Below are positions 1 to 16,972 of a DNA stretch of 64,000 nt, in pieces. The position numbers and the translations under genes were made by a program. Under the pieces are notes generated by a model. The model had not been told where the DNA came from and made no database searches. It saw nothing but the letters and a program-made list of their open reading frames with translations. Positions within the stretch are counted from its first letter, which is position 1; the number at the start of each line of letters is the position of its first letter. Origin of the DNA: Asanoa hainanensis (GTDB taxonomy: Bacteria; Actinomycetota; Actinomycetes; Mycobacteriales; Micromonosporaceae); contig NZ_FZPH01000012.1 of assembly GCF_900188485.1 (NCBI RefSeq), positions 124,001 to 188,000 on the forward strand, in the 5' to 3' direction.

Positions 1-25
1 CGGCCAGCTCGATCAGCAGTGCCAT
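1..25 (-). CDS. 5' end of an unidentified gene downstream of the sugar ABC operon (partial)
   Basis: Only the first eight codons (MALLIELA) lie in the window; the gene runs off the left edge. The ATG at 25 reading leftward is preceded by a good ribosome binding site (GAGGAG on the minus strand, about 5 bases upstream). It follows the binding-protein gene by 61 bases and is probably the fourth member of that operon. The product cannot be identified from eight residues. Confidence 0.5.
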
Positions 26-49
26 TGTTCTCCTCGGCGATGTGAGAGA

Positions 50-78
50 GGTGCGGCGGAGCAGGGCCCCGCCGCACC
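50..78 (-). terminator. Stem-loop between binding-protein gene and next gene
   Basis: A 10-bp perfect inverted repeat (GGTGCGGCGG at 50-59 with CCGCCGCACC at 69-78, 9-base loop) lies directly after the binding-protein stop codon and before the next ribosome binding site. There is no T tract. It could be a partial terminator or a 3' stabilising hairpin that raises binding-protein mRNA over its neighbour, as is common in sugar ABC operons. Confidence 0.5.
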
Positions 79-86
79 GGGTTGGG

Positions 87-1448
87 CTACTTGAAGAGCT
101 GGTTGACCTGGTCGTTGGCCTTCTTCATCGCGGAGGCCGAGTCGGTCTGGCCGAGCACGGCCGACTGGATGGCGTCCTGCACGATCTGGCTGACCTCGCT
201 GCCGTGGTCGGTGATCGGCAGGAAGAAGGTGCCGCCGGGTGCCGCGGCCTCGTCGATGAACGCCTGCACGTCGCGGCCCTTGCTCTTGTGGGCCTCCAAC
301 GCCTTCTCGCTGGCGTCCTTGATGGCCGGGAAGACCACCGCGTTGCCGCCGACGATGTTCTGGCAGTCGGGGGAGGCGAGGAACTTGACCCACTTCCAGG
401 CCTCGTCCTTGTGCTCGGTGCCCGTCCAGATCGCGTCCGAGAGGCCGTTGATCGCCGACTTGCGGCCCTGCGGACCGGCCGGCAGCGGCGCGAACGCGAA
501 CTTCAGCTTCGCGGTGTCACCGAGGTAGCTGTTGATCATCCAGGAGCCGGTGATCGTGATGGCGCCCTTGCCCGCGTTCATCAGCGCGTCGTTGGTGAGC
601 GTGGAGGCCTTGTCCAGCGCGGGGCTGTAGCCCTTGGCGATCAGTGACTTGTACCAGTCGATCACCTGGGCCAGCCGCGGGTCGTCGTACTTGTACTGCG
701 TGCCCCACGGGTTCTTGTCGAGGTACGTGAAGCCGAGCGAGGCGGCGAAGTTGCCCCAGCCGTTCTGGCCCTGCGAGCCGTCCTTGAACTCGGGCAGGAA
801 GCCGAACGTCTTGACCTTCGACTTGTCGAACGCGGGGTCCAGGCCGTTCTTGCCGTTGGCGTCCACCGTGGCCTTGGCGATGAGCTGCTCGAACGTACCC
901 CCGTCGGTGGGGTTCCAGGTCAGGTCCTTCAGGCTCGCCGCGTCGACGCCCTGCGCCTTGAGGTGCTCGGTGTTGAAGACCAGGGCCATGGTGTCCCAGT
1001 CCTTCGGGAGCCCGTAACGGGCGCCGTCCTTGGTGAACAGGTCAGCCAGGCCGCCCTGGTACTGGGACAGGTCGATCTTGTCGGCGTCGACGTACGGCTG
1101 GAGGTCGAGGATCTGGCCCGAGGTGACGAACTGCGGGTAGTACGAGCCCTGGTTGGTCCACACGTCGGGCGCCTCGCCGGCCGCGAGCTGGGTGGTCAGG
1201 TTCTGCCAGTACTGGTCCCAGGCCGACTGCGTGATCCGGATCGTGATGTTCGGGTTCGCGGTCTTGAACGCGTCGGCACAGGCCTGGTACGACGCCTTCT
1301 GGTTGTCGTCCCACAGCCAGTAGTCGAGCGTCACGGCGCCGCCGGCCTCGTCGCCGGAGTCGTCGCTGCTGCAGGCGGCCAGGCCGGCCAGGCCGGCGGC
1401 CATCGCCAAGGACAGCAGCGCTGTCCCGGCGCGTGATCTGCGGATCAT
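87..1448 (-). CDS. Sugar ABC transporter substrate-binding lipoprotein
   Basis: Extracellular solute-binding protein of the MalE-like (family 1) type, 453 aa. It should capture a sugar outside the membrane and deliver it to the two permeases encoded just upstream. The N-terminus is a lipoprotein signal: basic start, hydrophobic stretch and lipobox LAAC with the lipidated Cys at residue 26, followed by a Ser/Asp/Gly-rich linker. The mature part shows the usual family pattern (DYWLWDD near the start, APDVW, then ITGSWM). The minus-strand ATG at 1448 has AAGGA a few bases upstream. The gene is last of the three transport genes, 31 bases after the second permease. The substrate is not readable from sequence; the divergent secreted DUF4832-type proteins and GH4 suggest an oligosaccharide released by them (inference). 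Confidence 0.9.
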   Translation of the reverse strand: MIRRSRAGTALLSLAMAAGLAGLAACSSDDSGDEAGGAVTLDYWLWDDNQKASYQACADAFKTANPNITIRITQSAWDQYWQNLTTQLAAGEAPDVWTNQGSYYPQFVTSGQILDLQPYVDADKIDLSQYQGGLADLFTKDGARYGLPKDWDTMALVFNTEHLKAQGVDAASLKDLTWNPTDGGTFEQLIAKATVDANGKNGLDPAFDKSKVKTFGFLPEFKDGSQGQNGWGNFAASLGFTYLDKNPWGTQYKYDDPRLAQVIDWYKSLIAKGYSPALDKASTLTNDALMNAGKGAITITGSWMINSYLGDTAKLKFAFAPLPAGPQGRKSAINGLSDAIWTGTEHKDEAWKWVKFLASPDCQNIVGGNAVVFPAIKDASEKALEAHKSKGRDVQAFIDEAAAPGGTFFLPITDHGSEVSQIVQDAIQSAVLGQTDSASAMKKANDQVNQLFK

Positions 1449-1479
1449 CTCGTCCTTCTCTCTCTGCGGGGGAAAGGGG

Positions 1480-2367
1480 TTACTTGCTACCGGTGAAGTT
1501 CAGTGACTGGACCAGGCGCTTGCCCATGAAGATCAGCAGGATCAGGACCGGCAGGACCGACAACGTCGAGGCGGCCATCAGGCCGGTCCAGTCGGGTGTG
1601 GTGTTGGGCGACTGCTGGCGGAACACGCCGAGCGCCACGGTGACGAGCCGGTTCTCCTCGCCCCGGCCGACCAGCAGCGGCCAGAGGAAGTCCTTCCAGG
1701 CCCAGACGATCGTGGTGAGCCCGATGGTGATCAGGGGGCCGCGGCTCATCGGCAGCGCGATGCGCCAGAAGATGCCCCACGGGCCGTTGCCGTCGAGGAT
1801 CGCCGCCTCCTCCACGTCGCGGGGGAGCGACAGGAAGAACTGGCGCAGGAAGAACACCGCGAACGGCGTCATCAGGATCGTGGGAGCGACCATGCCGGCC
1901 ATCGTGTTGATCAGGCCGAGGTCCTTGACCAGGATGAAGTTGGGCAGCAGCGTGAAAATCGGCGGGACCATCAGGGCGGCGATCAGGATCGCGAAGACCG
2001 CGTCGCGGCCCGGGAAACGCAGCCGGGCGAAGGCGTATCCGGCCATCGCGCAGAACAGCGTCTGGCAGCCCGCGATCAGTCCGCAGTAGATGATCGAGTT
2101 GAGCAGGTAGCGGGCGAAGTCGATCTTCGCGCCGGAGCCGCCGGCGGCGCGGGCCTCGGCCTCGGTGGTCAGGCCCAGCACCCGCAGGAAGTTGATGAAC
2201 GTCGGGTCGTGCGGCAGCAGCGAGGAGTTGTCGGTGAAGAGGTCGGCGGCGGGGGTCAGCGCGGTGCGGACCATCCACCAGAACGGGAAGACCGTGACCA
2301 CGACGAACGTGATCATCGCGATCCAGGCGACGACCCGGCCGGTGGTGAGCTTTCGACGAGTACGCAT
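1480..2367 (-). CDS. Sugar ABC transporter permease (MalG type)
   Basis: Inner-membrane permease of a carbohydrate importer, 295 aa, with about six transmembrane segments. The MalG-type EAA loop that docks the ATPase is visible in the second half (EEAAILDGNGPWGIFWRIAL), followed by the typical hydrophobic C-terminus ending in LNFTGSK. It starts 9 bases after the stop of the MalF-type permease, so the two are probably coupled and form the heterodimeric channel. No ATPase gene is in the operon; many actinomycete sugar importers share a single MsiK-type ATPase encoded elsewhere (family knowledge). Confidence 0.9.
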   Translation of the reverse strand: MRTRRKLTTGRVVAWIAMITFVVVTVFPFWWMVRTALTPAADLFTDNSSLLPHDPTFINFLRVLGLTTEAEARAAGGSGAKIDFARYLLNSIIYCGLIAGCQTLFCAMAGYAFARLRFPGRDAVFAILIAALMVPPIFTLLPNFILVKDLGLINTMAGMVAPTILMTPFAVFFLRQFFLSLPRDVEEAAILDGNGPWGIFWRIALPMSRGPLITIGLTTIVWAWKDFLWPLLVGRGEENRLVTVALGVFRQQSPNTTPDWTGLMAASTLSVLPVLILLIFMGKRLVQSLNFTGSK

Positions 2368-2376
2368 GCCGGCCCC

Positions 2377-3258
2377 CTACGCCAGGTCCGAGCGGGACGC
2401 GCGGAGCAGGCGCATCTGGATCGCGGTGAGCACGCCGAGGATCAGCGCGAGGCAGATCGCCGCCGCGGCGGCATAGCCCATGTGGAAGTAGCGGAACGCC
2501 TGCTCGTAGATGAAGTAGTAGATGACCCGGGTCGCCGAGACCGGGCCGCCGAACGTGGTGACCGCGATCGTGTCGAAGATCTGGAACGACCCGATCAGCG
2601 AGACCACGAGCACCAGCGCCAGGACCGGGCGCAGCAGCGGCAGCGTGATCCGCCGGAACATCCGCCACTCGTTGGCGCCGTCGATCGCGGCGCTCTCGTA
2701 GAGGTACTGCGGTATCTGCAGCATCCCGGCGTAGAGCAGCAGCGCCGTGTACCCGGTGTAGGCCCAGGTGTTGATGGCCGCGACCGTCGGCATCGCCCAG
2801 GCCGCGTCGGTGAAGAACCCGACCGGGCCGACCCCGAGCGAGGTGAGCAGGTTGTTGACGAACCCGAGGTTGGTGTCCAACAGCCACATCCAGAGCAGGC
2901 CCACGGTGACGTTGGGTACGAGCCATGGCAGCAGCAACGCCGCCCGCAGCACCGTCGAGCGGGTCAGCCGGTGCATGAGCGACGCGACACCCAGCGCGAG
3001 CAGCGTCTGTGAGCCGATGTTGAGGACCACGTACCAGACGGTGACCAGCAGCGAGTGCCAGAACTGGCCGTCCTGGGCGAGCTCCGTGTAGTTGTCCGCG
3101 CCCACGAACGAGGGCTGGTTGAGCATCGTGTAGTCGGTGACCGAGTACCAGAGCCCGCGGATCGCCGGGTAGCCGTAGAAGACGGCGAAGCCCACCAGCA
3201 CCGGTAACAGGAACCACCACGCCGCACGACGGTCGTCGCGCCGTTTCGTCGTCTTCAT
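2377..3258 (-). CDS. Sugar ABC transporter permease (MalF type)
   Basis: First gene of the leftward transport operon, 293 aa, MalF/UgpA-like. After a basic cytoplasmic N-terminus (MKTTKRRDDRR) come about six membrane spans and the EAA-type loop (ESAAIDGANEWRMFRRITLP). The reading frame stays open far upstream, but the real start is the ATG at 3258, which has AGAGG 8 bases before it; the ATG six codons earlier (3276) lacks a site. It pairs with the MalG-type permease and the lipoprotein encoded after it. Confidence 0.9.
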   Translation of the reverse strand: MKTTKRRDDRRAAWWFLLPVLVGFAVFYGYPAIRGLWYSVTDYTMLNQPSFVGADNYTELAQDGQFWHSLLVTVWYVVLNIGSQTLLALGVASLMHRLTRSTVLRAALLLPWLVPNVTVGLLWMWLLDTNLGFVNNLLTSLGVGPVGFFTDAAWAMPTVAAINTWAYTGYTALLLYAGMLQIPQYLYESAAIDGANEWRMFRRITLPLLRPVLALVLVVSLIGSFQIFDTIAVTTFGGPVSATRVIYYFIYEQAFRYFHMGYAAAAAICLALILGVLTAIQMRLLRASRSDLA

Positions 3259-3317
3259 AGATCGCCTCTGATCCATCTCGGTTGGCTCTTGCCAGCCGCC
3301 CCGTTCTCGAATAATGA

Positions 3318-3343
3318 TGTAGACCTTCGAAATTTTGTCAACA
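3318..3343. promoter_or_regulatory. Divergent control region of importer and secreted-protein genes
   Basis: The 129 bases between the two divergent operons are strikingly AT-rich. An imperfect inverted repeat, TGTAGAC (3318-3324) and GTCAACA (3337-3343), spans it. Its right arm overlaps a consensus -35 hexamer TTGACA on the minus strand (3340-3335), which would serve the importer operon. I cannot place a convincing -10. The arrangement suggests one regulator controlling both directions; no regulator gene lies in this locus. Confidence 0.4.
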
Positions 3344-3387
3344 CCTCTTCGTATTACTTCAGAAACCGCCGAGGAGGCCGAGCGATC

Positions 3388-4755
3388 ATGATCCGCCGTG
3401 CCCTGCGCCTGTCGATAGCCCTGCTCGCGGCCCTGGTGGTCGCCTCGGGCACCCCCGCCGTGGCCCACCCGCCGTCGTCTCATCCACAGTGGACGCCGCT
3501 GGCCTACGCGCCCGCGCCAGCCGACAACCCGCTCAAGGGATTCCTGCCGTACGCCGGCAGCTACGAGACCTTCCCGTACAGCATGGAGTGGTTCTACCTG
3601 CCGCTGCGCGACGTGATGACCGGCCCGAAGCAGTTCAACTGGGCCGCCCTCGAACAGCAGCTCGACGACATCGCGTCGCGCGGCCACCAGGCCGTGTTCC
3701 GCTTCTACCTCGACTATCCGGGCAAGCCGACCGGCATCCCGCAGTACCTGCTCGACCAGGGCCTGCTCACCCGCCCGTACCCCGACTTCGGCAACAACGG
3801 CGTCAGCGTCTCGCCGGACTACACCGACCCGCGGCTGGTCTCCGCGCTGGAGAGCTTTATCGGCGCCCTGGGCCGGCGGTACGACGGTGACCCGCGGATC
3901 GGGTTCATCACGCTGGGCCTGGTCGGCTTCTGGGGCGAGTGGCACACCTGGCCGTACGACGGCTGGACCCAGCCGGAGAACTGGATGCCCGGCACCGACG
4001 TGCTGACCCGCGTCCTGAGCCGCTACGAGACCGCGTTCGACGAGACCCGGCTGCTGGCCCGCTATCCGAGCCCGGAGAACAAGACCCTCGGCATCGGCTA
4101 CCACGACGACTCGTTCGCCTTCGAGACCCTGCCCAACCAGTCCTGGCACTTCGTGCAGCGCCTGATCGACCAGGGCGTGACCGAGAAGTGGCGCGACGAG
4201 CCCATCGGCGGCGAGCTGAGGCCCGAGATCCAGTCGTGCCTGTGGGACCAGCCGGTCAGCTGCGGCCAGTACGAGGACTACGCCGAGTCCGTGGCCCAGA
4301 CCCACGCGTCCTGGCTCATCAACCACGCCGCGTTCGCCGGCGCCGGCTACTCGGGCGACAACAAGGCCCGCGCCCTGGCCGCGTCCCGCTCGTTGGGCTA
4401 CGAGCTGACCGTCACCGCGGCGGCGGTGTCCCGTGACCGCGTGTCCGTGAAGGTGGCCAACCGCGGCGCCGCGCCGTTCTACTACGACTGGCCCGCCGAG
4501 CTCGCCGCCCTCGACAGCCGGGGCCGCGTCGTCAAACGCTGGCACACCAACTGGTCGATGACGGGCATCCAGCCCGGCGGGGCCCCCACGCTGAAGTCGG
4601 CCCGGATCGACACCCGTGGCCTGCGCCGGGGCAGCTACGACATCGTCCTGCGCGTCCCCAACCCGCTGCGCGGCGGCATCCCGTTGCGCTTCGCGAACAC
4701 CAGCCAGGACAACGAGTCCGGCTGGCTCCACCTCGGTGCCGTCACGACCCGCTGA
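3388..4755 (+). CDS. Secreted DUF4874/DUF4832-type protein, single-domain paralogue
   Basis: 455-aa exported protein of unknown function, first of three tandem paralogues. The start is the ATG at 3388 with GAGGAGG 10 bases upstream; an Ala/Leu-rich signal peptide ends near AVAHP (about residue 29). The body matches what I know of DUF4874 followed by DUF4832: an NPLKGF motif near the mature N-terminus, then GFWGEWHTWPYDG with Glu184 and His186, RYPSPENK, GYHDDSF, and GGELRPEIQ. These acidic and aromatic motifs on an alternating alpha/beta pattern resemble a TIM-barrel glycosidase, but no catalytic role is established. The C-terminal 90 residues look like a beta-sandwich (NRGAAPFYYDW). It lacks the FN3 and binding domains of its two neighbours. 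A role in polysaccharide breakdown is inference from context. Confidence 0.8.
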   Translation: MIRRALRLSIALLAALVVASGTPAVAHPPSSHPQWTPLAYAPAPADNPLKGFLPYAGSYETFPYSMEWFYLPLRDVMTGPKQFNWAALEQQLDDIASRGHQAVFRFYLDYPGKPTGIPQYLLDQGLLTRPYPDFGNNGVSVSPDYTDPRLVSALESFIGALGRRYDGDPRIGFITLGLVGFWGEWHTWPYDGWTQPENWMPGTDVLTRVLSRYETAFDETRLLARYPSPENKTLGIGYHDDSFAFETLPNQSWHFVQRLIDQGVTEKWRDEPIGGELRPEIQSCLWDQPVSCGQYEDYAESVAQTHASWLINHAAFAGAGYSGDNKARALAASRSLGYELTVTAAAVSRDRVSVKVANRGAAPFYYDWPAELAALDSRGRVVKRWHTNWSMTGIQPGGAPTLKSARIDTRGLRRGSYDIVLRVPNPLRGGIPLRFANTSQDNESGWLHLGAVTTR

Positions 4756-4800
4756 CGGCACGCACCTGTTCCTAACTCCGTCCCGAAGGGAACACGGTTC

Positions 4801-7467
4801 ATGGCATCACTACGCAAGTTGTTCGTCACCAGCGCCGCGGTGCTCACCCTGGTGCTGGCGTCGAGCACCGCGGTCGCCGCGCCGGCGGGCCCACCGTCCC
4901 GCCCGCCGGCCGGCCCCGGACCCGACACGAGCCTGACCACCCACTCCTACACCTACGCCGACGCCCCGCTCGGGCAGCCGCTCAAGGGCTTCGCCCCCTA
5001 CCTGTTCCCGGGCGACAACCTGGGCGCGAAGTATCCCGGGGGCCTCGTCTGGAGCTACTTCGCACTCAACGAGGTGATGAAGGACCCCACGAGCTGCTCG
5101 GTCTTCGACTGGAGCGTCTTCGAGAAGGCGCTCGACGAGGCCGCCGTCTGGGGCCGGCAGGTCGCCTTCCGGTTCTACGTCGAGTATCCCGGCGGCAGCG
5201 GCACCCACCCCGGCAACGGCATCCCGCCGTGCCTGAACGGCAAGATGGCGTTGCGTACCAACGGTTTCTGGGGCACCGTCAGCCCGGACTACGACGACCC
5301 CGACGTCATCGCGGCGCTCACCAGCTTCATCAACGCCTTCGCGAACCGCTACGACCGGGCCGGCCCGGGTGGCACGGCGGACCCGCGCATCGGCTTCATG
5401 ACGATGGGCCTCGTCGGTCTCTGGGGTGAGTGGCACACCTGGCCCTACGACCGCGACACCGCTGACGGCTACCCCAACCTGATGCCGACCGACACCACCA
5501 TCCGCACCCTGATGGGCGCGTTCGACACCGCGTTCAACAACATCCAGCTCGAGGTCCGCTACCCGCTGGCCGGCACCGAGAACGCGAACATCGGCTTCCA
5601 CGACGACTCCTGGCCGTACAAGGAGTGGCGCGGCAACGCGCTGAAGGGGATGACCCTGCCCGTCTCGATGAACGGCTGGGACGACGCGTTCCTCCAGCTG
5701 CAGCTCAACACCGGCACCGAGAACCGGTGGGTCACCCAGTCGATCGGCGGCGAGGCCCGGCCCGAGATCCAGGGCAGCCTGTACGCCAACTGGCCGGGCG
5801 GCTCGGGCCAGGTCGACGACGTGCTCGCCGCGACCGAGCTCACCCACATCAGCTGGATGATCAACCAGACCGGCGCCGGCGGCTACAGCACCGGCGACGC
5901 GAACGTGGCCGCGGGCGTCCGCAAGATGGGCTACAACCTGCACATCCCGCAGGCCAACTTCAACAGCAGCGCCTCGGGCACGTTCAAGGTCGGCGTCACC
6001 ATGCAGAACAACGGCGTGGCGCCGTTCTACTACCCGTGGACGACGGTCATCGGCCTGCGCAACGCGTCCGGGGCGATCGTCAAGACCTGGGACACCAACT
6101 GGGACCTGCGGCAGGTGCAGCCGCTGCGGATCCGGGCGTTCCCCGACTGGAACGTGGGCGGCAACCCGACCTATCTCGACTTCGGCCGCCCGGTCAACTT
6201 CTCCGCGAACCTCAGCACGGCCGGCGTGCCCGCGGGCTCGTACAGCCTCGTGTTGAAGGTCCGCAACCCCCTCGAGACCGTGACACCCGAGGTGCTGCGG
6301 GCGCGGCCGGCCGCCAGCCGGCTGACCGACTGGATCATCGACCAGTGGCGCCCGGCCCTGCCGCTCTCGTTCGCCAACGCCAACCAGGGCACGGACGGCT
6401 GGGTCAACCTCGGCAACATGACCACCGGCGGGTGTACGGGTGACTGCACGGCGCCGTCGGTGCCGTCCGGGCTCGCGGTGACCGGGGTGACGAACACGAG
6501 CGTGTCCCTGTCGTGGTCGGCGTCCACGGACAACGTCGGTGTGACGGGCTACCAGGTGTTGCGCAACGGTGTGCTGGCCGGTTCGCCGACAGGCACGTCG
6601 TTCACCGACACCGGTCGTTCGCCGGGGCAGACGTATCAGTACCAGGTGCGGGCGGTCGACGCTGCGGGCAACCAGTCCGGTTTGTCTTCCACGGTGTCGG
6701 GGACCACGAGCGGCTGCTCGGGTGACTGCACCGCACCGAGTGCGCCCACCCTTTCGTCGCCCAGCAAGACGGACACCACGGTCTCGTTGTCGTGGACCGC
6801 GTCGACGGACAACGTTGGCGTGACGGGTTATGAGGTGTTCCGGGGTTCGACGTTGGTGGGCAGTCCGACGGGGACGTCGTTCACCGACACGGGATTGACG
6901 GCTTCGACGGCATATTCGTACACCGTGAAGGCGCGGGACGCGGCCGGGAACCGGTCCGCGGCCAGCAATACCGTCACGGTGACGACGAATGCCGGGACGC
7001 CACCGCCGACCGGCCTCGTGCTGGACAACTTCGACGGGACACCGGCGTACCCGTCGGCGGCCCTGAACGATCTGGGCAAGTGGACCGGCGGCAACTGCTT
7101 CCTCGACGGCGGTGGCTCGGGCGCGGTGTCCGGCGGGGCGTTGAGCCTGCGCTACAACAACTGCGGCTGGTTCGGCTCCGACGTCGGTGTGGACCTGAGC
7201 TCGCGGACGTATCTGGTCGTGCGGGTCAAGGGTGCTGCCGGTGGGGAGCAAACCCACTTCAACCTCGGTCTCGGTGGGTCGACGAAGGTGTTCGGCGACT
7301 TCACGTTGGACGGTGGTGCCCACCCGGTCATCACGACCAGCTATCAGGACATCCGCATCCCGATGGCGACCAACGGGATCAACCGCAACTCGCCGTCGCA
7401 GCTCGCGATGGGCTTCTGGTACGGCGGCAACTCCACCATCTCCATCGACCACATCAGCTTCGAGTAG
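4801..7467 (+). CDS. Secreted DUF4832-type protein with two FN3 domains and a C-terminal binding module
   Basis: 888 aa, exported, second of the three paralogues and 45 bases after the first. Order: signal peptide to about residue 29 (ending VAAPAG), DUF4874/DUF4832-type body to about 540 with GLWGEWHTWPYDR (Glu210, His212), VRYPLAG, GFHDDSW and GGEARPEIQ; two fibronectin type III domains at about 547-635 and 641-730, each introduced by a C-x-GDCTAPS linker; and a C-terminal domain of about 150 residues from LVLDNFDG to the end that looks like a beta-sandwich carbohydrate-binding module. FN3 plus binding module is typical of actinomycete enzymes that attack insoluble polysaccharides. GAAGGGAA upstream of the ATG serves as ribosome binding site. 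The C-terminal third is nearly identical to that of the next gene. The catalytic activity is unknown. Confidence 0.8.
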   Translation: MASLRKLFVTSAAVLTLVLASSTAVAAPAGPPSRPPAGPGPDTSLTTHSYTYADAPLGQPLKGFAPYLFPGDNLGAKYPGGLVWSYFALNEVMKDPTSCSVFDWSVFEKALDEAAVWGRQVAFRFYVEYPGGSGTHPGNGIPPCLNGKMALRTNGFWGTVSPDYDDPDVIAALTSFINAFANRYDRAGPGGTADPRIGFMTMGLVGLWGEWHTWPYDRDTADGYPNLMPTDTTIRTLMGAFDTAFNNIQLEVRYPLAGTENANIGFHDDSWPYKEWRGNALKGMTLPVSMNGWDDAFLQLQLNTGTENRWVTQSIGGEARPEIQGSLYANWPGGSGQVDDVLAATELTHISWMINQTGAGGYSTGDANVAAGVRKMGYNLHIPQANFNSSASGTFKVGVTMQNNGVAPFYYPWTTVIGLRNASGAIVKTWDTNWDLRQVQPLRIRAFPDWNVGGNPTYLDFGRPVNFSANLSTAGVPAGSYSLVLKVRNPLETVTPEVLRARPAASRLTDWIIDQWRPALPLSFANANQGTDGWVNLGNMTTGGCTGDCTAPSVPSGLAVTGVTNTSVSLSWSASTDNVGVTGYQVLRNGVLAGSPTGTSFTDTGRSPGQTYQYQVRAVDAAGNQSGLSSTVSGTTSGCSGDCTAPSAPTLSSPSKTDTTVSLSWTASTDNVGVTGYEVFRGSTLVGSPTGTSFTDTGLTASTAYSYTVKARDAAGNRSAASNTVTVTTNAGTPPPTGLVLDNFDGTPAYPSAALNDLGKWTGGNCFLDGGGSGAVSGGALSLRYNNCGWFGSDVGVDLSSRTYLVVRVKGAAGGEQTHFNLGLGGSTKVFGDFTLDGGAHPVITTSYQDIRIPMATNGINRNSPSQLAMGFWYGGNSTISIDHISFE
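6439..7467. repeat. Direct repeat copy 1: FN3-FN3-binding-module block
   Basis: About 1.03 kb encoding the C-terminal block of the second DUF4832-type gene. It is repeated 2522 bases downstream (8961-9983) with long runs of identical nucleotides and one net 6-base difference, seen in the proteins as PSAALNDLGKW here and PSTNDLGKW in copy 2. The two FN3 units inside each copy are also related to each other. Confidence 0.85.
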
Positions 7468-7478
7468 GGGAGAGCATC

Positions 7479-9983
7479 ATGTTCGCTCGCACCCTGCGGG
7501 TGCTGACCGTGGCGACCGTGGTCGCGGCGTCGGTGGCGGTCGGTGCCGCGCCGGCCCAGGCGGCCACCGTCACCTACCAGGCCGACCTGGCCACCGCGTT
7601 CGCCAACCCGGAGCGCGGCTACCACAACCGCTACGAGATCATCAACGACCCGGCGGTCAACGACTACGTCAACGCCTCCAGCATCCCCGGTTTCAACCCG
7701 GACCTGCTCGACCGGACGTTCACCCGGGCCAGGAACAACGGCAACACGCTGATCCACAGCTACGTCCACCTCGACAAGTACAAGACGCAGGCCCTGCCGC
7801 AGGCGCTGCTCGACAACCTGGCGTCGGGCCTCGCGGCGGTCCGGGCGGCCGGCATGAAGATCGTGCTGCGGCCCGCGTACACCTGGGACGGCTACGTCAG
7901 CGTCGACGAGGCGCAGATTCTCTCGCACATCAGCCAGCTCAACGCCGTCATCACCGCCAACGCCGACGTGGTCCTGCACCTGGAGACCGGCTACCTCGGC
8001 GCGTGGGGCGAGTGGCACACCGGCGGGCTGACCAACCCGTCGTCGGTCGAGGAGGCGCCGGCCCGCTACCGCATCATGAAGCGGATCGCCGACACCACCC
8101 CGGCCACGATCCCCCTCGCGATGCGCTATCCCATCTACATCAAGGAGGTGGTCGACCCCACGTCCTGCGTGGTGCCGGGCGGGTGCGACCTGACCCAGGC
8201 GCAGAAGGACCGGATCGGCTTCCACAACGACTGCTTCCTGGCCGACTACAACGACATGGGCACCTACGACAACCCGTCCTGGATGGGCTGGTACTACATC
8301 GAGCAGAAGAAGCAGTGGATGTACGACCTGGCCACCTCCGGCGGGCTCAACAAGATGGTCGGCGGCGAGACGTGCGGCGCCGACGGCTACAACGACGCCG
8401 CGTGCGTCAACGCGCAATCCGAGATGTTGAAGCTGAACTTCACGGAGATCAACGAGGACTACGCCGCCGTCAACACCGACAAGTGGAAGGCGGCCAACCT
8501 CGCGGCGAGCGGCAACGACCCGGCCGAGACCTGCTTCACGCGGATCAAGCGCAAGCTCGGCTATCGGCTCAGGCTGCTGGACGCGACGTTCCCGACCACG
8601 GTCGCGCTCGGTGCCGGCCTGAGCTTCACCGCGCACCTGTCCAACGACGGGTGGTCCGGGCTCGTCAAGACGCGGCCGGTCTATCTCGTGCTGGACAACG
8701 GTACGCAGCGCTACAACCTGCCGCTGACCGGCGTCGACCCGCGCACCTGGCTGGCCGGCGCGAGCACGGTCACCTCCAGCGTCACCGTTCCGGGTGGCGT
8801 GGTGGCCGGCTCGTACAAGTTGGCGCTGTGGCTGCCCGACCCCGTCGCCGCGTTGCAGAACCGGCCGGCCTACTCGGTGCGGCTGGCCAACACCGGCACC
8901 TGGGACGCGACCAAGGGCTACAACGTCCTGGCCAACGCGGTGACCGTCGGGTCGTGCACCGGTGACTGCACGGCGCCGTCGGTGCCGTCGGGGCTGGCGG
9001 TGTCGGGGGTGACGAACACGAGCGTGTCGCTGTCGTGGTCGGCGTCCACGGACAACGTGGGTGTGACGGGCTATCAGGTGTGGCGGAACGGTGTGCTGGC
9101 CGGTTCTCCGACGGGCACGTCGTTCACGGACACCGGTCGTTCGCCGGGGCAGACGTATCAGTACCAGGTGCGGGCGGTCGACGCGGCGGGCAATCAGTCC
9201 GGTTTGTCTTCCACGGTGTCGGGGACCACGAGCGGGTGTTCGGGTGACTGCACGGCGCCGAGTGCGCCCACCCTTTCGTCGCCCAGCAAGACGGACACCA
9301 CGGTGTCGTTGTCGTGGACGGCTTCCACGGACAACGTCGGCGTGACGGGCTATGAGGTGTTCCGGGGTTCGACGTTGGTGGGCAGTCCGACCGGGACGTC
9401 GTTCACCGACACGGGCCTGACCGCTTCGACGGCCTACTCGTACACCGTGAAGGCGCGGGACGCGGCCGGGAACCGGTCCGCGGCCAGCAACGCGGTCGCC
9501 GTCACCACCGATGCGACTCCACCACCGCCGACGGGGCTGGTGCTGGACAACTTCGACGGGACACCGGCGTACCCCTCCACCAATGATCTGGGTAAGTGGA
9601 CCGGTGGGAACTGCTTCCTGGACGGCGGTGGTGCCGGCGTGGTCACGGGTGGGGCGTTGAGCCTGCGGTACAACAACTGTGGCTGGTTCGGGTCCGACGT
9701 CGGTGTCGACCTGAGCTCGCGGACGTATCTGGTCGTGCGGGTCAAGGGCGCGGCCGGTGGGGAGCAAACCCACTTCAACCTCGGACTCGGCGGTTCCACC
9801 AAGGTGTTCGGTGACTTCACACTGGACGGTGGTGCCCACCCGGTCATCACGACCAGCTATCAGGACATCCGCATTCCCATGGCGGCCAACGGGATAAACC
9901 GCAACTCGCCGTCTCAGCTCGCCATGGGCTTCTGGTACGGCGGCAACTCGACCATTTCCATCGACCACATCTCGTTCCAGTAG
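7479..9983 (+). CDS. Secreted DUF4874/DUF4832 protein with two FN3 domains and a C-terminal binding module
   Basis: 834 aa, exported, third paralogue. The frame is open upstream, but the start is the ATG at 7479, preceded by GGGGAGAG and immediately followed by a signal peptide cut near AQAAT (about residue 28). The body (to about 490) has the most canonical DUF4874 opening (NPERGYHNRYE), then GAWGEWHTGG (Glu178, His180), MRYPIYIKE, GFHNDCF and GGETCG. It is clearly more diverged from the other two than they are from each other. Two FN3 domains (about 496-583 and 589-678) and the LVLDNFDG-type module (about 687-834) follow, almost the same as in the preceding protein. A similar target surface but a different specificity is a reasonable inference. 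Confidence 0.82.
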   Translation: MFARTLRVLTVATVVAASVAVGAAPAQAATVTYQADLATAFANPERGYHNRYEIINDPAVNDYVNASSIPGFNPDLLDRTFTRARNNGNTLIHSYVHLDKYKTQALPQALLDNLASGLAAVRAAGMKIVLRPAYTWDGYVSVDEAQILSHISQLNAVITANADVVLHLETGYLGAWGEWHTGGLTNPSSVEEAPARYRIMKRIADTTPATIPLAMRYPIYIKEVVDPTSCVVPGGCDLTQAQKDRIGFHNDCFLADYNDMGTYDNPSWMGWYYIEQKKQWMYDLATSGGLNKMVGGETCGADGYNDAACVNAQSEMLKLNFTEINEDYAAVNTDKWKAANLAASGNDPAETCFTRIKRKLGYRLRLLDATFPTTVALGAGLSFTAHLSNDGWSGLVKTRPVYLVLDNGTQRYNLPLTGVDPRTWLAGASTVTSSVTVPGGVVAGSYKLALWLPDPVAALQNRPAYSVRLANTGTWDATKGYNVLANAVTVGSCTGDCTAPSVPSGLAVSGVTNTSVSLSWSASTDNVGVTGYQVWRNGVLAGSPTGTSFTDTGRSPGQTYQYQVRAVDAAGNQSGLSSTVSGTTSGCSGDCTAPSAPTLSSPSKTDTTVSLSWTASTDNVGVTGYEVFRGSTLVGSPTGTSFTDTGLTASTAYSYTVKARDAAGNRSAASNAVAVTTDATPPPPTGLVLDNFDGTPAYPSTNDLGKWTGGNCFLDGGGAGVVTGGALSLRYNNCGWFGSDVGVDLSSRTYLVVRVKGAAGGEQTHFNLGLGGSTKVFGDFTLDGGAHPVITTSYQDIRIPMAANGINRNSPSQLAMGFWYGGNSTISIDHISFQ
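8961..9983. repeat. Direct repeat copy 2: FN3-FN3-binding-module block
   Basis: Second copy of the block at 6439-7467, encoding the C-terminus of the third DUF4832-type gene. The catalytic-type N-terminal halves of the two genes are diverged while these blocks are nearly the same. That pattern fits recent duplication of the module or gene conversion between the copies. Confidence 0.85.
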
Positions 9984-10022
9984 GCACATCAGGCGCTGCC
10001 CGCGTCGTTTCGGAGGACCTGA

Positions 10023-11309
10023 ATGACAACCATCGTTTTCCTCGGCGCGGGCAGCGTCGTCTTCACCCGCGAGCTGCTCGTCGACATCCTCGGCTTCCCC
10101 GAGCTCGCCGACGCGCGGATCGTGCTGCACGACATCGACCCCGAGCGGCTCGCGACCGCTTCGGCGTTGGCCGGCCGGGTCGCTTCCGCCTATGGAGTGC
10201 GGCCCTCGATCGTCGCCACGCTCGATCGCCGGGCCGCGCTCGACGGCGCCGACTTCGTCGTCAACTCCATCCAGGTCGGCATGTACGCGGCCACCCGCGT
10301 CGACTTCGACGTGCCGGCCCGGTTCGGCCTGCGCCAGACGATCGGCGACACCATCGGGATCGGCGGCATCTTTCGGGGCCTGCGGACGTTCCCGGTGCTG
10401 GCCGGCATCGCCGCCGACATGGCCGAGCTGTGTCCGGACGCGTGGCTGCTGAACTACACCAACCCGATGGCCATGAACGTCACGTACCTGGCCCGGATCG
10501 CACCGCGGCTGCGCGTCCTTGGCCTGTGCCACTCGGTCTACTGGACCGTGCGCGGCCTCTGCGAGATCGTCGACGTGCCGTTCGACGACGTCAGGTTCGA
10601 GAGCGCCGGCGTCAACCACCAGGCGTGGATCCTGCGCTGGGAACGGGACGGCGTCGACCTCTATCCCTTGCTCGACGCGGCCATCGACCGTGATCCCGAA
10701 CTGCGCCGGCGCGTACGCGTCGATATGTACCGCAGGCTCGGCTACTACCCGACCGAGACGAGCGAGCACTCGGCCGAGTATGTGCCCTGGTACCTGCACC
10801 ACGACGCGGAGATCGAGCGGCTGCGCATCCCGGTGGGGGAGTACCTGGCGGTCAGCGAGGCCAACCTGGCGGAGTACGCCGCGACCCGCGCCGGCACCGC
10901 CCCGATCGACCTCACGAAGTACACGACGGAGTACGCGCCCCAGGTCATCCACAGCATGGTCACGGGCACGCCGCGCCGGATCGTCGCCAACGTCGCCAAC
11001 GACGGCCTGATCGGCAACCTGCCGGCCGGGTTCGCGGTCGAGGTGCCGACCACTGTGGATGGTGCCGGTGCCCGCCCGTCGCCGGTCGGCTTGTTGCCGC
11101 CGCAGCTCGCCGCGGTCAACCGGCCCTACGTCAGTGTCGGCGAGCTCACGGTCGAGGCCGCCCTCAGGGGCGATCCGCGGCTCGTGCGCCAGGCCGCGAT
11201 GGTCGACCCGAACACGTCCGCGTCGCTGACCGTCGACGCGATCTGGGAGCTGTGCGACGCGTTGATCGCGGCGCACGGTGACCTCCTGCCCGAGGGGCTG
11301 CGGGCATGA
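10023..11309 (+). CDS. Glycoside hydrolase family 4 alpha-glycosidase (MelA/AglA-like)
   Basis: Cytoplasmic NAD- and metal-dependent glycosidase, 428 aa, the normal length for GH4. GH4 enzymes cleave by oxidation at C3, elimination and re-addition of water (family knowledge). The NAD loop is at the N-terminus (IVFLGAGSVVF, residues 4-14). The metal-site Cys lies in GLCHSV (Cys169), the metal-binding His in GVNHQAW (His199), and NPMAMN is also present. The sequence looks closer to the alpha-galactosidase/alpha-glucosidase branch than to the phospho-glycosidases, but this is by eye. The ATG at 10023 is preceded by CGGAGGACCTGA. It overlaps the next gene by 4 bases. It probably hydrolyses the sugar imported by the ABC system at the left of the window (inference). 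Confidence 0.88.
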   Translation: MTTIVFLGAGSVVFTRELLVDILGFPELADARIVLHDIDPERLATASALAGRVASAYGVRPSIVATLDRRAALDGADFVVNSIQVGMYAATRVDFDVPARFGLRQTIGDTIGIGGIFRGLRTFPVLAGIAADMAELCPDAWLLNYTNPMAMNVTYLARIAPRLRVLGLCHSVYWTVRGLCEIVDVPFDDVRFESAGVNHQAWILRWERDGVDLYPLLDAAIDRDPELRRRVRVDMYRRLGYYPTETSEHSAEYVPWYLHHDAEIERLRIPVGEYLAVSEANLAEYAATRAGTAPIDLTKYTTEYAPQVIHSMVTGTPRRIVANVANDGLIGNLPAGFAVEVPTTVDGAGARPSPVGLLPPQLAAVNRPYVSVGELTVEAALRGDPRLVRQAAMVDPNTSASLTVDAIWELCDALIAAHGDLLPEGLRA

Positions 11310-12346
11310 CGGAGCTGCGGCTGCGTGACTACACACCCGTGCCGGCCATCCGGCGTCCGTTGACCCACGTGCCGCGGGCGGCGGTGCCCGCCGTCGACGT
11401 GCACAACCACCTCGGCCGGTGGCTGGGCGACGGGGACTGGCTCGTGCGGGACGTGCCCGCGTTGGTCGACCTGATGGACGAGGTCAACGTCCGCACGATC
11501 GTCAACCTGGACGGCCGTTGGGACGGCGAGCTCTCCGCCAACGTCGCTCGCCTCGATGACGCGTACCCGAATCGGTTCGTGACCTTCTGCCACCTCGACT
11601 GGTCACTGCTGCGCGGCCCGGACCCGACCGGCGCGCTGATCGCCGCGTTGCGGCGCGCCCGCGACGCCGGCGCCCGCGGCGTCAAGGTGTGGAAGGACCT
11701 CGGGCTGACCGTGACCGACGCCAGCGGCGCGAAGGTGCTGCCCGACGACCCACGGCTGACCGACGTGTTCGCCGCGGCGGGGGAGCTGGGCCTGCCAGTG
11801 CTCATCCACACCGCGGACCCGATCGCGTTCTTCCAACCGCTCGACGAGCGCAACGAGCGGTTGGAGGAGCTCGCGGCGAACCCGTCGTGGTGGTTCGGGG
11901 CGCCCGGCTACCCCACGTTCGATCGCCTGATGACCGCCCTGGAGACGGTGGTGGCGGGCGCGCCGGGCACGACGTTCATCGGCGCCCACGTCGGCTGCGC
12001 GGCCGAGGACCTCGGCTGGGTCGACGGCATGCTGACCCGCCATCCCAACTTCCACGTCGACCTGGGCGGCCGGCTGGCCGAGCTGGGCCGCCAACCGCGC
12101 GCCACCCGCCGCCTGATCCTCGCCCACCCGGACCGCGTCCTGTTCGGCTCGGACGCCTTCCCACCCGGCCGGGAGGCGTACGAGGTCTACTGGCGCTTCC
12201 TCGAGACCGAGGACGAATGCTTCCCGTACGCCCCGGGCAGCCCGATCCCGCCGCAGGGCCGCTGGGACATCTCCGCCGTCGGACTGCCGCCGGACGTGCT
12301 GTCCCAGGTTTATGCCGGCAACGCGCGGCGGCTGCTTTCCGAATGA
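11306..12346 (+). CDS. Amidohydrolase-2 family metal-dependent hydrolase
   Basis: 346-aa TIM-barrel protein of the amidohydrolase_2 type (relatives act as decarboxylases, lactonases or hydrolases). Visible metal-site features are DVHNHLG near residue 31, VKVWKDLGL (second-strand Lys region), LIHTADP, GAHVG, and LFGSDAF near the C-terminus. The ATG overlaps the GH4 stop codon (ATGA), so translation is probably coupled and the two enzymes should act in one pathway. Hydrolysis of a sugar lactone or an acyl-sugar is possible but unproven. The gene ends the rightward operon and is followed by a strong hairpin. Confidence 0.8.
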   Translation: MTELRLRDYTPVPAIRRPLTHVPRAAVPAVDVHNHLGRWLGDGDWLVRDVPALVDLMDEVNVRTIVNLDGRWDGELSANVARLDDAYPNRFVTFCHLDWSLLRGPDPTGALIAALRRARDAGARGVKVWKDLGLTVTDASGAKVLPDDPRLTDVFAAAGELGLPVLIHTADPIAFFQPLDERNERLEELAANPSWWFGAPGYPTFDRLMTALETVVAGAPGTTFIGAHVGCAAEDLGWVDGMLTRHPNFHVDLGGRLAELGRQPRATRRLILAHPDRVLFGSDAFPPGREAYEVYWRFLETEDECFPYAPGSPIPPQGRWDISAVGLPPDVLSQVYAGNARRLLSE

Positions 12347-12347
12347 G

Positions 12348-12382
12348 GCTGGCCCGGTACGCGCGGGGCGCACCGGGCCAGC
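12348..12382. terminator. Bidirectional terminator hairpin
   Basis: An 11-bp perfect stem (GCTGGCCCGGT at 12348-12358 and ACCGGGCCAGC at 12372-12382) with a 13-base loop lies between two convergent genes, starting just after the amidohydrolase stop. It is followed by GGCCTTTC. It should stop transcription from both sides. Confidence 0.85.
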
Positions 12383-12393
12383 GGCCTTTCGGG

Positions 12394-12828
12394 TCAGGCG
12401 GCTCTGTTGCTCCGGGCCATGATGGGGATCAGCACCGCGCCGGTCGCGAGGTGCATCGCCAGCAGAGCCAGCTTGGCGCCCGCTCCGACCCCCGACCCGA
12501 TCGGGCCGAGCAGCGAGAACGCCAGGACGGTCGAGGCGATCAAGGTCCAGGTCCGCGTGCCGCCCTTGGTCCAGCGCTCGAGCACCGCCAGCAGGCCCCA
12601 CCCGGCCAGGCCGGCCAGGACGGTCACGAGGACGACGGCCACCGGCGTCACGGTGGTGGCGCCTGAGCCCTGGTCGACGATCAGGTCGACGCCGGCGATC
12701 GGGTCCGCGATCGTCCAGACCGTGAAGGTGGCCGCGGCGGCCGCCACCACGGCTAGGCCACGGGCCCGGCGGCGCTTACGGGCGCATTCGGCGGCGGTGT
12801 GGGCGGTGGCGTTGGTCGTGGCGGTCAT
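12394..12828 (-). CDS. Small integral membrane protein, DUF6069-like
   Basis: 144 aa with a short basic N-terminus (CARKRRRAR) and four hydrophobic segments: about residues 24-45, 62-84, 96-115 and 118-135. The pattern (AxVDLIV after the first span, GWGLLAVLER, a Gly-rich LLGPIGSGVGAGA turn, LLAMHLATGAVLIP) matches what I recall of the DUF6069 family of actinomycete membrane proteins of unknown function. The frame is open much further upstream; I place the start at the ATG at 12828 because GAGGAG lies 6 bases before it. The gene is divergent from the two-component system and may be its target (inference). Confidence 0.7.
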   Translation of the reverse strand: MTATTNATAHTAAECARKRRRARGLAVVAAAAATFTVWTIADPIAGVDLIVDQGSGATTVTPVAVVLVTVLAGLAGWGLLAVLERWTKGGTRTWTLIASTVLAFSLLGPIGSGVGAGAKLALLAMHLATGAVLIPIMARSNRAA

Positions 12829-12993
12829 GGTGTTCTCCTCGGATCGGTGCCGTTCGTTGTCTGGCACCACTGTCCGGGGTGCGGGCCTCATCCCGGATCG
12901 GGCGCGGGACGGGATCCGATCTCCGTCCGTGGACGGATGCGGGCGGGCGGCCGGGTCGGTCTCGCGGCCGATGAGCCGTCGCCGCCGGCCGCC

Positions 12994-12999
12994 TACGGT
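12994..12999 (+). promoter_or_regulatory. Candidate -10 element for a leaderless start of the sensor kinase
   Basis: TACGGT lies 7 bases before the ATG at 13007, while no Shine-Dalgarno sequence precedes that ATG. This spacing is expected when transcription begins at the start codon. No clear -35 is visible. Confidence 0.35.
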
Positions 13000-13006
13000 G
13001 AAACAC

Positions 13007-14116
13007 ATGAAGTCTTCCCGGGTTCCCCCGAGGGCGGTCGGCGCGGTGTGGGCCGGCGTGGTCGCGGTCGTGCTCACCGTGCTGATCCTGCTGGTGCCGG
13101 ACGGCCCGTCCACACCGCTGACGACGGCGGCGGCTCTGGCGTGCGGGCTCGCGCAGGCCGCGTCCGTGCTGCTGATCGGCCGGCGGCCCGAGTGGGCGAT
13201 CACCCTCGCGATCGCGGCGGGCATCGGCGTCGAGGCGTTCGCGCCGCAGGTCGGCTGGCTCGGCCTGGCCGCGGGCCCGCTGATCGCCTTCGCCCGGATC
13301 CGGCCACCGCGGGTCTCGCTGTGGGCGCTCGGCGTGATGGTCGCGCTGACCCCGTGGAAGCTGGTGGACGGCGGCGGCTGGCGTGAGGTGGTCATCGCCG
13401 TGTTCGCGTCGCTGCTCGGCTGGACGTGGGGCGAGCTGGACCGGTCCCGCTGCATCCGCCGCGAGCAGGAACGCCGGCGGATCGTCTCCGACGAGCGCGC
13501 CCGGCTGGCCCGGGAACTGCACGACGTGGTCGCGCACAACGTGTCGCTGATGGTCGTGCAGGCCGGCGCCGCCGCCGACGTCTTCGCCCGTCGGCCCGAG
13601 CAGGCCCTGGCCGCGCTCGACACCATCCAGGAGGCGGGCCGCTCCGCCCTCGGCGAGCTGCGGGCGATGCTGCAGACCCTGCGGCCGGACGGCACGGAGC
13701 CGCGGGCGCCGCAGCCGGGCCTCGACCAGCTCGACTCCCTCGCCGCCTCGCTGGGCGCGGTGGGGCTGCCGGTCGCGGTCAACCGGGACGGTCCCGCTCG
13801 CGAGGTGCCGGCCGACGTGAGCCTGTCGGTCTACCGCATCGTCCAGGAGTCGCTGACCAACACCCTGCGGCACGCCCGTGCGACCCGGGCCGAGGTGCGC
13901 CTGCGCTGGACCGACGCGGAGCTGCACCTCGAGATCACCGACGACGGCACGGCCGGCGCGTCCCGCGTACCGGCGGCGTTCACCGGCGGTTCCGGCGCGG
14001 GCCTGGCCGGCATGCGCGAACGCGCCCGACTGGTCGGCGGTAGCCTCGACGCCGGTCCGCTGCACGAGGGCGGGTTCCGTGTCTCGGCCAGCCTGCCCCT
14101 GGGAGCGTCCGCGTGA
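13007..14116 (+). CDS. NarL-type sensor histidine kinase
   Basis: 369-aa membrane sensor kinase. The first 130 residues hold four to five transmembrane helices and no large extracellular domain, so the stimulus is probably sensed in or at the membrane. The HisKA_3 dimerisation region follows, with phospho-acceptor His172 in ARELHDVVAHNVS, then a HATPase domain with the N box (QESLTNTLRHA) and the G box GSGAGLAGMRERA. The start at 13007 is chosen because the membrane region begins right after it; an ATG at 12971 would add 12 residues. The stop overlaps the GTG of the response-regulator gene (GTGA), and the two form a standard pair. Confidence 0.88.
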   Translation: MKSSRVPPRAVGAVWAGVVAVVLTVLILLVPDGPSTPLTTAAALACGLAQAASVLLIGRRPEWAITLAIAAGIGVEAFAPQVGWLGLAAGPLIAFARIRPPRVSLWALGVMVALTPWKLVDGGGWREVVIAVFASLLGWTWGELDRSRCIRREQERRRIVSDERARLARELHDVVAHNVSLMVVQAGAAADVFARRPEQALAALDTIQEAGRSALGELRAMLQTLRPDGTEPRAPQPGLDQLDSLAASLGAVGLPVAVNRDGPAREVPADVSLSVYRIVQESLTNTLRHARATRAEVRLRWTDAELHLEITDDGTAGASRVPAAFTGGSGAGLAGMRERARLVGGSLDAGPLHEGGFRVSASLPLGASA

Positions 14117-14772
14117 CCGTCACCGTCCTGCTCGCCGACGACCAGGAGCTGGTCCGCGCCGGCTTCGCGATGATCCTCGGCGCCCGCGACGACATCGAGG
14201 TGGTCGGCGAGGCCGGCGACGGCCTGGAAGCGGTGGCGCTCGCCGCCGAGACCAAGCCCGACGTGGTGCTGATGGACGTCCGGATGCCCCGGCTCGACGG
14301 CATCGAGGCGACCCGCCGGATCGTCGACTCGGGCAGCCCGGCCCGGGTGGTCATGCTCACCACGTTCGACCTCGACGAGCCCGTGTTCGCGGCGTTGCGG
14401 GCCGGGGCCAGCGGCTTCCTGCTCAAGGACATCCGCCCGGCCGACCTGGCGGACGCGGTGCGGGTGGTGGCCCGCGGCGAGGCCCTGCTCGCACCGACGG
14501 TGACCCGGCGCCTGCTCGACCGTTTCGCGACGGGCCTGCCGGCCCGGTCGGGGCCGGACCGGCGGCTCGAAGCGTTGACCGCCCGGGAGGTCGAGGTGCT
14601 GACGCTGGTCGCGCGGGCGATGACCAACGCCGAGATCGCCGAGCGCCTCTTCCTCACCCAGGCCACGGTCAAGACCCACATCTCGGCGATCCTGACGAAA
14701 CTCGACCTCCGCGACCGGGTCCAGGCGGCGGTGCTCGCCTACGAGACCGGCCTGGTGCGACCGGGCGCGTGA
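14113..14772 (+). CDS. NarL/FixJ-type response regulator
   Basis: 219-aa DNA-binding response regulator, partner of the kinase encoded immediately upstream. The receiver domain occupies residues 1-120: acidic pocket ADDQE, phospho-acceptor Asp55 in LMDVRMPRLDG, Thr in MLTTFD and Lys in FLLKDIRP. The LuxR-type helix-turn-helix is at about 152-212 (LTAREVEVLTLVARAMTNAEIAE and the following recognition helix). It starts with GTG and overlaps the kinase gene by 4 bases. The divergent DUF6069-like gene is a plausible target. Confidence 0.9.
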   Translation: MTVTVLLADDQELVRAGFAMILGARDDIEVVGEAGDGLEAVALAAETKPDVVLMDVRMPRLDGIEATRRIVDSGSPARVVMLTTFDLDEPVFAALRAGASGFLLKDIRPADLADAVRVVARGEALLAPTVTRRLLDRFATGLPARSGPDRRLEALTAREVEVLTLVARAMTNAEIAERLFLTQATVKTHISAILTKLDLRDRVQAAVLAYETGLVRPGA

Positions 14773-14775
14773 CCG

Positions 14776-15225: not shown

Positions 15226-15240
15226 CGCTGGTCTCTCTCC

Positions 15241-15870: not shown

Positions 15871-15885
15871 GAGTCTCTCCAACAC

Positions 15886-15956: not shown

Positions 15957-15977
15957 GACGGCGTCGTGAGGCGCCGC

Positions 15978-16928: not shown

Positions 16929-16972
16929 GAGGCCATGTTCGCGTTAACAATAGACGAATGTCAATGACTCGT

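Follow-up and report, generated by a model that had tools for sequence, protein, structure and literature searches.

Both fungi and bacteria build galactosamine polymers into their matrices, and the endo-α-1,4-galactosaminidases of glycoside hydrolase (GH) families GH114, GH135, GH166 and GH191, which act on polymers of N-acetylgalactosamine (GalNAc) or galactosamine (GalN), are triosephosphate isomerase (TIM)-barrel enzymes that use an Asp/Glu pair (PMC12054363; from this and the other publications cited, we draw on the portions of text available). SIR_1591, a DUF4832 protein encoded in the pel operon of Streptococcus intermedius, has been described as β-amylase and β-galactosidase like, and the purified protein disperses aggregates of the GalNAc-rich polysaccharide Pel (PMC12345266). 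Here we analyzed a 64,000-nucleotide stretch of DNA from the soil actinomycete Asanoa hainanensis (assembly GCF_900188485.1, contig NZ_FZPH01000012.1, positions 124,001 to 188,000; hereafter the window), at the start of which three exported DUF4832 paralogues, P1 to P3, lie beside a sugar ATP-binding cassette (ABC) importer. The locus is neither ordinary nor an artefact. We lean towards reading it as a catabolic locus for an exopolysaccharide of α-linked galactose (Gal), GalNAc and GalN, presumably α-1,4-linked and similar in type to galactosaminogalactan of fungi or Pel of bacteria. Since one active family member has been published, what is new would be the catabolic system and the substrate it probably serves.

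SIR_1591 belongs to a Pel synthesis operon, and its published description, in the portions available for this comparison, makes no mention of FN3 (PMC12345266); the three paralogues here lie in a locus for uptake and catabolism. The initial annotation of the window had treated the family as one without an assigned activity, which SIR_1591 makes out of date; no CAZy number is given for DUF4832 or DUF4874 in the available portions of those publications naming them that were consulted. Where the four endo-galactosaminidase families use Asp/Glu, DUF4832 proteins have an invariant Glu/Glu pair, and P1 to P3 had no Pfam match to any of these families, for some of which Pfam may lack models. PF03537 has a single match in the A. 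hainanensis genome, on another contig. GH114 genes accompany DUF4832 in loci L096, L101 and L117 (loci are numbered L) and occur without it in L155. The enzymes that the P2 and P3 models match best in structure, namely β-amylase (GH14), GH35 β-galactosidases, XynC (GH30), PslG (GH39) and GH5 enzymes, are only 7-14% identical to them. The AgaR, AgaZ and AgaS-type genes of the aga (GalNAc/GalN) clusters stand beside a Microbulbifer orthologue of P2, and none was found in the window locus. Gram-positive glycan utilisation loci with importers made of a solute-binding protein (SBP) and permeases are well established. Like them, the present locus combines exported hydrolases, a three-gene importer without an ATPase of its own, cytoplasmic glycosidases and a local regulator, but it differs in its lead enzyme family and proposed substrate.

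Genes were called from open reading frames (ORFs) and Pfam and NCBIfam profiles. In window coordinates, the features of the locus are:

1..25, minus strand: 5' end of the GH36 α-galactosidase gene (ORF, Pfam Melibiase; best Protein Data Bank (PDB) match the α-galactosidase 6lcj, E 1.3e-103)
87..1448, minus strand: SBP of a carbohydrate ABC importer (SBP_bac_8/SBP_bac_1; N-terminus lipoprotein-like on sequence inspection)
1480..2367, minus strand: ABC importer permease (BPD_transp_1; UgpE/MalG-like under the NCBIfam cut-offs)
2377..3258, minus strand: ABC importer permease, first gene of the minus-strand operon (BPD_transp_1; UgpA-like under cut-off)
3310..3344, minus strand: promoter-like element TTGACAAA...CATCATTATT, between the divergent operons, with TTGACA at 3336-3341
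3388..4755, plus strand: P1, exported DUF4832 protein of 455 residues, no FN3; invariant pair Glu 184 and Glu 276
4801..7467, plus strand: P2, exported DUF4832 protein of 888 residues; Glu 210 and Glu 318 in the catalytic domain
about 6433-7014 and about 7015-7464: P2 tail, FN3-FN3 and C-terminal module, respectively
7479..9983, plus strand: P3, exported DUF4874-DUF4832 protein of 834 residues; Glu 178 and Glu 297 in the catalytic domain
about 8955-9536 and about 9537-9980: P3 tail, FN3-FN3 and C-terminal module, respectively
10023..11309, plus strand: GH4 of the α-galactosidase type (PF02056, PF11975; NCBIfam PRK15076)
11306..12346, plus strand: cytoplasmic Amidohydro_2 metal hydrolase; start overlaps the GH4 stop, no signal peptide seen

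All genes named by the initial annotation, that is, the three exported paralogues beside the importer followed by the coupled GH4 and amidohydrolase, are present. The locus, however, is not confined to positions 1-12346 as had been assumed but continues past the window edge. On the minus strand the order is permease, permease, SBP and then, past the edge, GH36 and next a ROK/NagC-like regulator gene (Pfam ROK) outside the window. The GH36 protein has 495 residues, nearly all of them encoded beyond the edge (G000:C43:122541-124025; L003:10542-12026). The SBP showed partial NCBIfam similarity to GanS, far under the cut-off. The importer operon showed no ATPase gene; SBP-permease importers of this type often share an ATPase. 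A GH43 gene at 15978-16928 on the minus strand, 3.6 kb past the locus, is apparently separate.

All three paralogues passed the Pfam cut-off of 29.2 bits for DUF4832 (PF16116), with 32, 34.7 and 168.1 bits for P1, P2 and P3, respectively. For DUF4874 (PF16173, cut-off 30.1) P3 passed with 105.8 bits, while P1 and P2 stayed below it with 16.8 and 20.4 bits. Sequence inspection showed signal-peptide-like N-termini on P1, P2 and P3. The WGEWH, RYP, G[FY]H[DN]D and GGE motifs reported before occur in all three proteins, and the build of two FN3 domains and a C-terminal module, likewise reported before, was recovered with Pfam on P2 and P3, not on P1; the C-terminal module itself had no Pfam match.

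P2 is 42% and P3 28% identical to P1, and we therefore distinguish two subfamilies. In a tree of 63 sequences (from 26 of the 78 loci described below, the window, L047-L050, L143 and L144, with stop signs inside translated rows written as X), the P1 and P2 types grouped together (support 0.99) and P3 grouped with canonical DUF4832 (support 1.0); the P1 group was weakly supported (0.19). Since each of the P1, P2 and P3 types is found in several genera, the three genes are not a fresh triplication. Over their final 1.05 kb, which encodes FN3-FN3 and the tail (6419-7467 and 8941-9983), P2 and P3 share 90% DNA identity despite strongly diverged catalytic parts, suggesting that the tails were recently copied or homogenised by gene conversion. 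A 2149-residue protein of Paenibacillus glycanilyticus (L131:9761-16207) is a doubled, cell-surface form of DUF4832, with two such stretches alongside CBM11, Big_2 and three SLH repeats.

Sequence searches gave no credible DUF4832 relative of solved structure; profile matches to protocadherin (E 0.48) and BolA (E 1.8) were at chance level. AlphaFold2 models had a pLDDT of 82.8 and a pTM of 0.84 for P2 (49-sequence alignment, 48 of the 78 loci plus the window), and 84.0 and 0.88 for P3 (20 sequences, 19 of 25 listed P3 matches plus the window). With Foldseek, the best PDB matches of the P2 model were GH35 β-galactosidases and β-amylases (best E 2.6e-7), and those of the P3 model were β-amylase (E 6e-9), then XynC, PslG, GH5 and others, with a probability of 1.00 in both cases. 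These matches support the TIM-barrel glycosidase fold class proposed earlier, GH-A- or GH14-like, for the P2 and P3 models and agree with the published fold description of SIR_1591.

Strands 4 and 7 bear the catalytic residues in clan GH-A. In the models, the WGEWH Glu lies just after predicted strand 4 (residues 148-152 and E161 in P2, 133-137 and E146 in P3), and the GGE Glu lies on predicted strand 7 (E269 and E265, respectively); 161 and 269 in the P2 model are Glu 210 and Glu 318 of the protein. The Trp and Glu of WGEWH, the Arg of RYP, the second Asp of GFHDD and the GGE Glu were each invariant in 63/63 sequences. Of the two GEWH residues that had been put forward for comparison with catalytic residues of glycosidases, the Glu agrees in predicted position and conservation, whereas the His is a Tyr in 5/5 canonical DUF4832 sequences.

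A contig scan with a P2/P1 alignment gave 497 confirmed stretches, the best 80 of which represent 78 distinct loci. Partners were counted as tblastn matches at 40% identity or more, and loci of at least 21,200 bases (58/78) were taken as having full flanks. Among the 78 loci, GH36 was found in 64, the two permeases in 64 each, the SBP in 63 and the ROK regulator in 57; the P1 type was found in 40, P3 in 24, GH4 in 17 and the amidohydrolase in 5. The corresponding figures for the 58 full-flank loci are 54, 54 and 54, 53 and 48, followed by 31, 21, 17 and 5, which bears out the expected co-occurrence of DUF4832 with a sugar importer. Hence the conserved core consists of DUF4832, the importer and GH36. 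GH4 and the amidohydrolase, both named as partners by the initial annotation, are accessory, and the constant partner is the GH36 gene outside the window. As a whole, the earlier observation is confirmed and its interpretation partly supported. Full-flank loci without GH36 of the window type were L058, L060, L096 and L131, and the GH36 of L096 is a different one. By hand count, 22 genera are represented among the 64 loci with GH36, whose gene order varies.

GH36 matched at E<=1e-30 in 40 of 41 genomes and was single in 36 of these 40; the best match fell within the contig range of the DUF4832 locus in 40/40 (positions compared by hand). The 41 genomes, our own and 40 reached via the loci, were chosen after the loci were known and are mostly known GH36 carriers; they were taken from 48, leaving out five without GH36 seen in the locus as well as G574 and G576, in which GH36 was seen. 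A gene that is mostly single per genome and has its best match in the locus is no common neighbour. Within the genus, the P1 and P2 types occur in 6/6 genomes, our own included, and in 5/5 of the others the importer, GH36 and ROK genes stand beside them; GH4 was found in two of these five (two stretches end short and one lacks GH4) and the amidohydrolase in three. The nearest named locus, L054 of A. ishikariensis, is 98% identical over P2. In the class, the P2 query matched 7 of 394 genomes, our own included and at least one of them weakly, and DUF4832 was found in 16/394 (8 over cut-off) and in 12/200 genomes of the order (7 over cut-off).

Genes for GFO/IDH/MocA oxidoreductases recur near DUF4832 loci, 23 loci being found via two queries, query loci included (L043, L046, L079-L082, L098, L101, L104, L105, L111, L112, L122-L124, L127-L129 and L161 with one; L088, L103, L130 and L131 with the second). 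They were considered as nicotinamide adenine dinucleotide-dependent GalNAc-ases, and no such claim is made, as their PDB matches are mostly dehydrogenases or oxidoreductases (60 of 83 listed).

The promoter-like element is also conserved. Of 65 sequences compared, the window included, 61 have the exact TTGACAAA ahead of the first permease, followed by a conserved CATCATTATT-like block with CATC at no less than 90% and tTAtt at no less than 60%. No obvious shared palindrome was seen among the 40 of 65 upstream regions compared, and therefore no ROK operator is named.

The substrate is suggested by the company that DUF4832 genes keep. In Microbulbifer litoralis (L096), a P2 orthologue at 9707-12238 is 75% identical to P2, with a related tail (69%), and falls with window P2 into one nine-member clade (support 1.0). 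Its neighbours include AgaR (313 bits, cut-off 260), AgaZ (610, cut-off 569) and an AgaS-family isomerase just under its cut-off (493 against 529), together with a BadF/BadG ATPase-family protein of weak N-acetylglucosamine-kinase similarity, a TonB receptor, GH114, Melibiase_2 (GH27-type) and Amidohydro_2. The top PDB matches of the L096 GH36 are 8x1b, named an α-galactosidase, and 9awt, a blood-group A galactosaminidase (E 2e-81). In Streptomyces, L101 and L117 each combine the core with GH114, GH4 and another pair of permeases within 21 kb. That a gammaproteobacterial protein is 75% identical to an actinomycete P2 may reflect horizontal transfer.

Synthesis-type genes also occur nearby. L050 (canonical DUF4832) and L047 (P1 type, 54% identical to P1) have a DUF3492 glycosyltransferase, presumably the PelF domain, and GHL15 nearby, and the two glycosyltransferases are 59% identical. 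The A. hainanensis genome itself holds a probable Pel/galactosaminogalactan-like synthesis cluster (L170, G000:C18:425000-443999, at 6391-16791) with genes for an Agd3-like deacetylase with CBM87, a DUF3492 glycosyltransferase, GH114, a nucleotidyl transferase and an epimerase. Bacterial operons that combine Agd3 homologues with glycosyltransferase and GH114 genes have been described (PMC7229062). Galactosaminogalactan is a heteropolymer with Gal, GalNAc and GalN (PMC12054363), a composition that reconciles the α-galactosidases of the locus with amino sugars.

The window GH36 scored 42.2 bits with Melibiase PF02065 (cut-off 27), and KxDF, which we take to be the nucleophile motif of the family, was present in all of the 52 of 65 GH36 sequences whose motif was listed. 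In the substrate-binding motif, Ser replaces the Cys of 6lcj in all 61 of 65 sequences found by regular expression, our own included. A Cys to Asn change at the corresponding site of another GH36 lowers kcat/Km about 200-fold (PMC6213131). Considered as a hint at an altered C2 substituent, the Ser decides nothing and stays a lead, because the galactosaminidase-like GH36 of Microbulbifer keeps the Cys. The GH4 protein passed the α-galactosidase model PRK15076 with 548.4 bits (cut-off 486).

The amidohydrolase scored 82.1 bits with PF04909 (cut-off 26.4), and its DxHxH, H, GAH and D ligand-type motifs were present in 9/9 sequences compared, the window included; we assume HxH/H/H/D to be the metal-ligand pattern expected of the amidohydrolase superfamily. 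Close relatives occur in 11 of 394 class genomes, our own included. In L154-L156, such a relative (65-66% identical) accompanies GH4 (69-71%), a SIS protein of the amino-sugar isomerase/deaminase type, importer permeases and AgaR-like regulators that stay under the cut-off (197-205 bits against 260); a class II ketose-bisphosphate aldolase is found in L154 and L156, and GH114 in L155. DUF4832 was not found in L154-L156, whose genomes are not among the 16 DUF4832 genomes of the class. L049 has an amidohydrolase relative with canonical DUF4832, importer and SIS, and L161 has the same without the amidohydrolase. Between the importer and the amidohydrolase-DUF4832 pair of L049 lies a flavin adenine dinucleotide-dependent (DAO-type) oxidoreductase gene (6643-7854, plus strand). 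The other seven relatives (L157-L159 and L164, of 16-20 kb, and three in loci of about 4 kb) showed no such partners. GH4 and the amidohydrolase are thus found in the company of DUF4832 as well as, in L155, of a known endo-galactosaminidase family.

With gene set, fold class, invariant Glu pair and conserved linkage observed computationally, a degradation route can be proposed, of which the order of steps is conjectural. P1 to P3, taken to be exported glycosidases of TIM-barrel fold in which strands 4 and 7 each end in one Glu of the pair, would cut the polymer outside the cell, probably in endo fashion, while FN3 linkers and the C-terminal module may keep P2 and P3 on it. The importer, whose families are clear, would take up the resulting oligosaccharides. 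GH36 and GH4, families that act by two different chemistries, would then release α-Gal-type units. To judge from its neighbourhoods, the amidohydrolase most likely serves an amino-sugar branch, for example in N-acetyl removal, and is a candidate GalNAc deacetylase. The ROK regulator and the conserved promoter would control the importer operon.

Several findings weigh against this assignment. The model-normalised TM-scores are low (P2 0.25-0.38, P3 0.13-0.41, best 50 matches listed), and the structural matches are therefore taken as a statement of fold class. The window locus has no amino-sugar pathway gene, and the SIS and ROK kinase genes of the genome lie on another contig. Across the 78 loci, whose neighbour genes were annotated in part, GH114 was near only three with the queries used, and one (L118) had an L049-type SIS gene, to which L096 adds an AgaS-type one. 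GH114 is common in the class, occurring in 94/296 genomes against 37/48 locus genomes (those of 47 of the 78 loci and our own), and as this background is unmatched for genome size and taxon, the enrichment is kept out of the proof. A scan of three further ORFs in L050 turned up no pel gene beyond DUF3492 and GHL15. SIR_1591 was assayed by aggregate loss only, and deletion of its gene left Pel production and aggregation unchanged (PMC12345266).

As GH36 and GH4 are α-galactosidases by family, the substrate may instead be a plain α-galactan or galactoside. This alternative, which we consider unlikely, holds that DUF4832 proteins cut an α-galactose-only polymer or a galactosylated plant or fungal polysaccharide outside, that GH36 and GH4 act in their ordinary way, and that the galactosamine link is peripheral. 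It gains from the inner enzymes, GH36 (nearest solved structure 6lcj) being conserved and GH4 recurrent, from the rarity of the SIS gene, and from the GH43 gene of the window. It also gains from L048, where canonical DUF4832 lies about 3-6 kb from GH43-CBM6 and GH10-CBM2 (14556-17505, minus strand), a xylan context that may mean that the canonical group includes enzymes for other glycans; and a rumen DUF4874-DUF4832-dockerin protein has been classed as cellulosomal (PMC7480376). Yet the xylan neighbours go with the canonical group and not with P2, as far as the partly annotated neighbours tell, plant-wall enzymes being possible elsewhere. The Microbulbifer P2 orthologue stands in an aga/GH114 locus, and the sole active DUF4832 protein found in the available literature acts on a GalNAc-rich polymer.

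An improbable alternative is that the locus remodels or recycles a Pel-like polymer of the strain itself rather than foreign ones. The cluster with Agd3-like deacetylase, DUF3492 glycosyltransferase and GH114 in the same genome agrees with it, as do the DUF4832 genes near DUF3492 glycosyltransferases in L047 and L050, but the two loci of the strain are on different contigs (C43 and C18), and an importer, two cytoplasmic glycosidases and a ROK regulator suit uptake and catabolism, not matrix trimming. That DUF4832 proteins merely bind or scaffold on a TIM-barrel background, as low TM-scores to known enzymes and the FN3 and C-terminal modules might suggest, is highly improbable given five motif residues invariant in all 63 sequences and the activity of a purified family member (PMC12345266).

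Our preferred reading thus remains a catabolic locus for a polymer of Gal, GalNAc and GalN. Its fullest form is more tentative: a dedicated galactosaminogalactan/Pel catabolic system built on a new GH family with a β-amylase-like Glu/Glu pair, in which P1, P2 and P3 might each cut the heteropolymer in a different part, Gal (or GalN) might be taken by GH36 and GH4, and the PF04909 protein might be a new type of GalNAc deacetylase. Among the literature matches listed, none described a locus dedicated to taking up and catabolising galactosamine polymers. In the cultures tested in one study, the extracellular matrix on average accounted for all of the galactosamine (PMC11014887). If the proposal is true, actinomycetes of 22 genera would hold ready enzyme sets for breaking galactosamine matrix, and galactosaminogalactan consumers in soil would become directly testable through three proteins of the locus.

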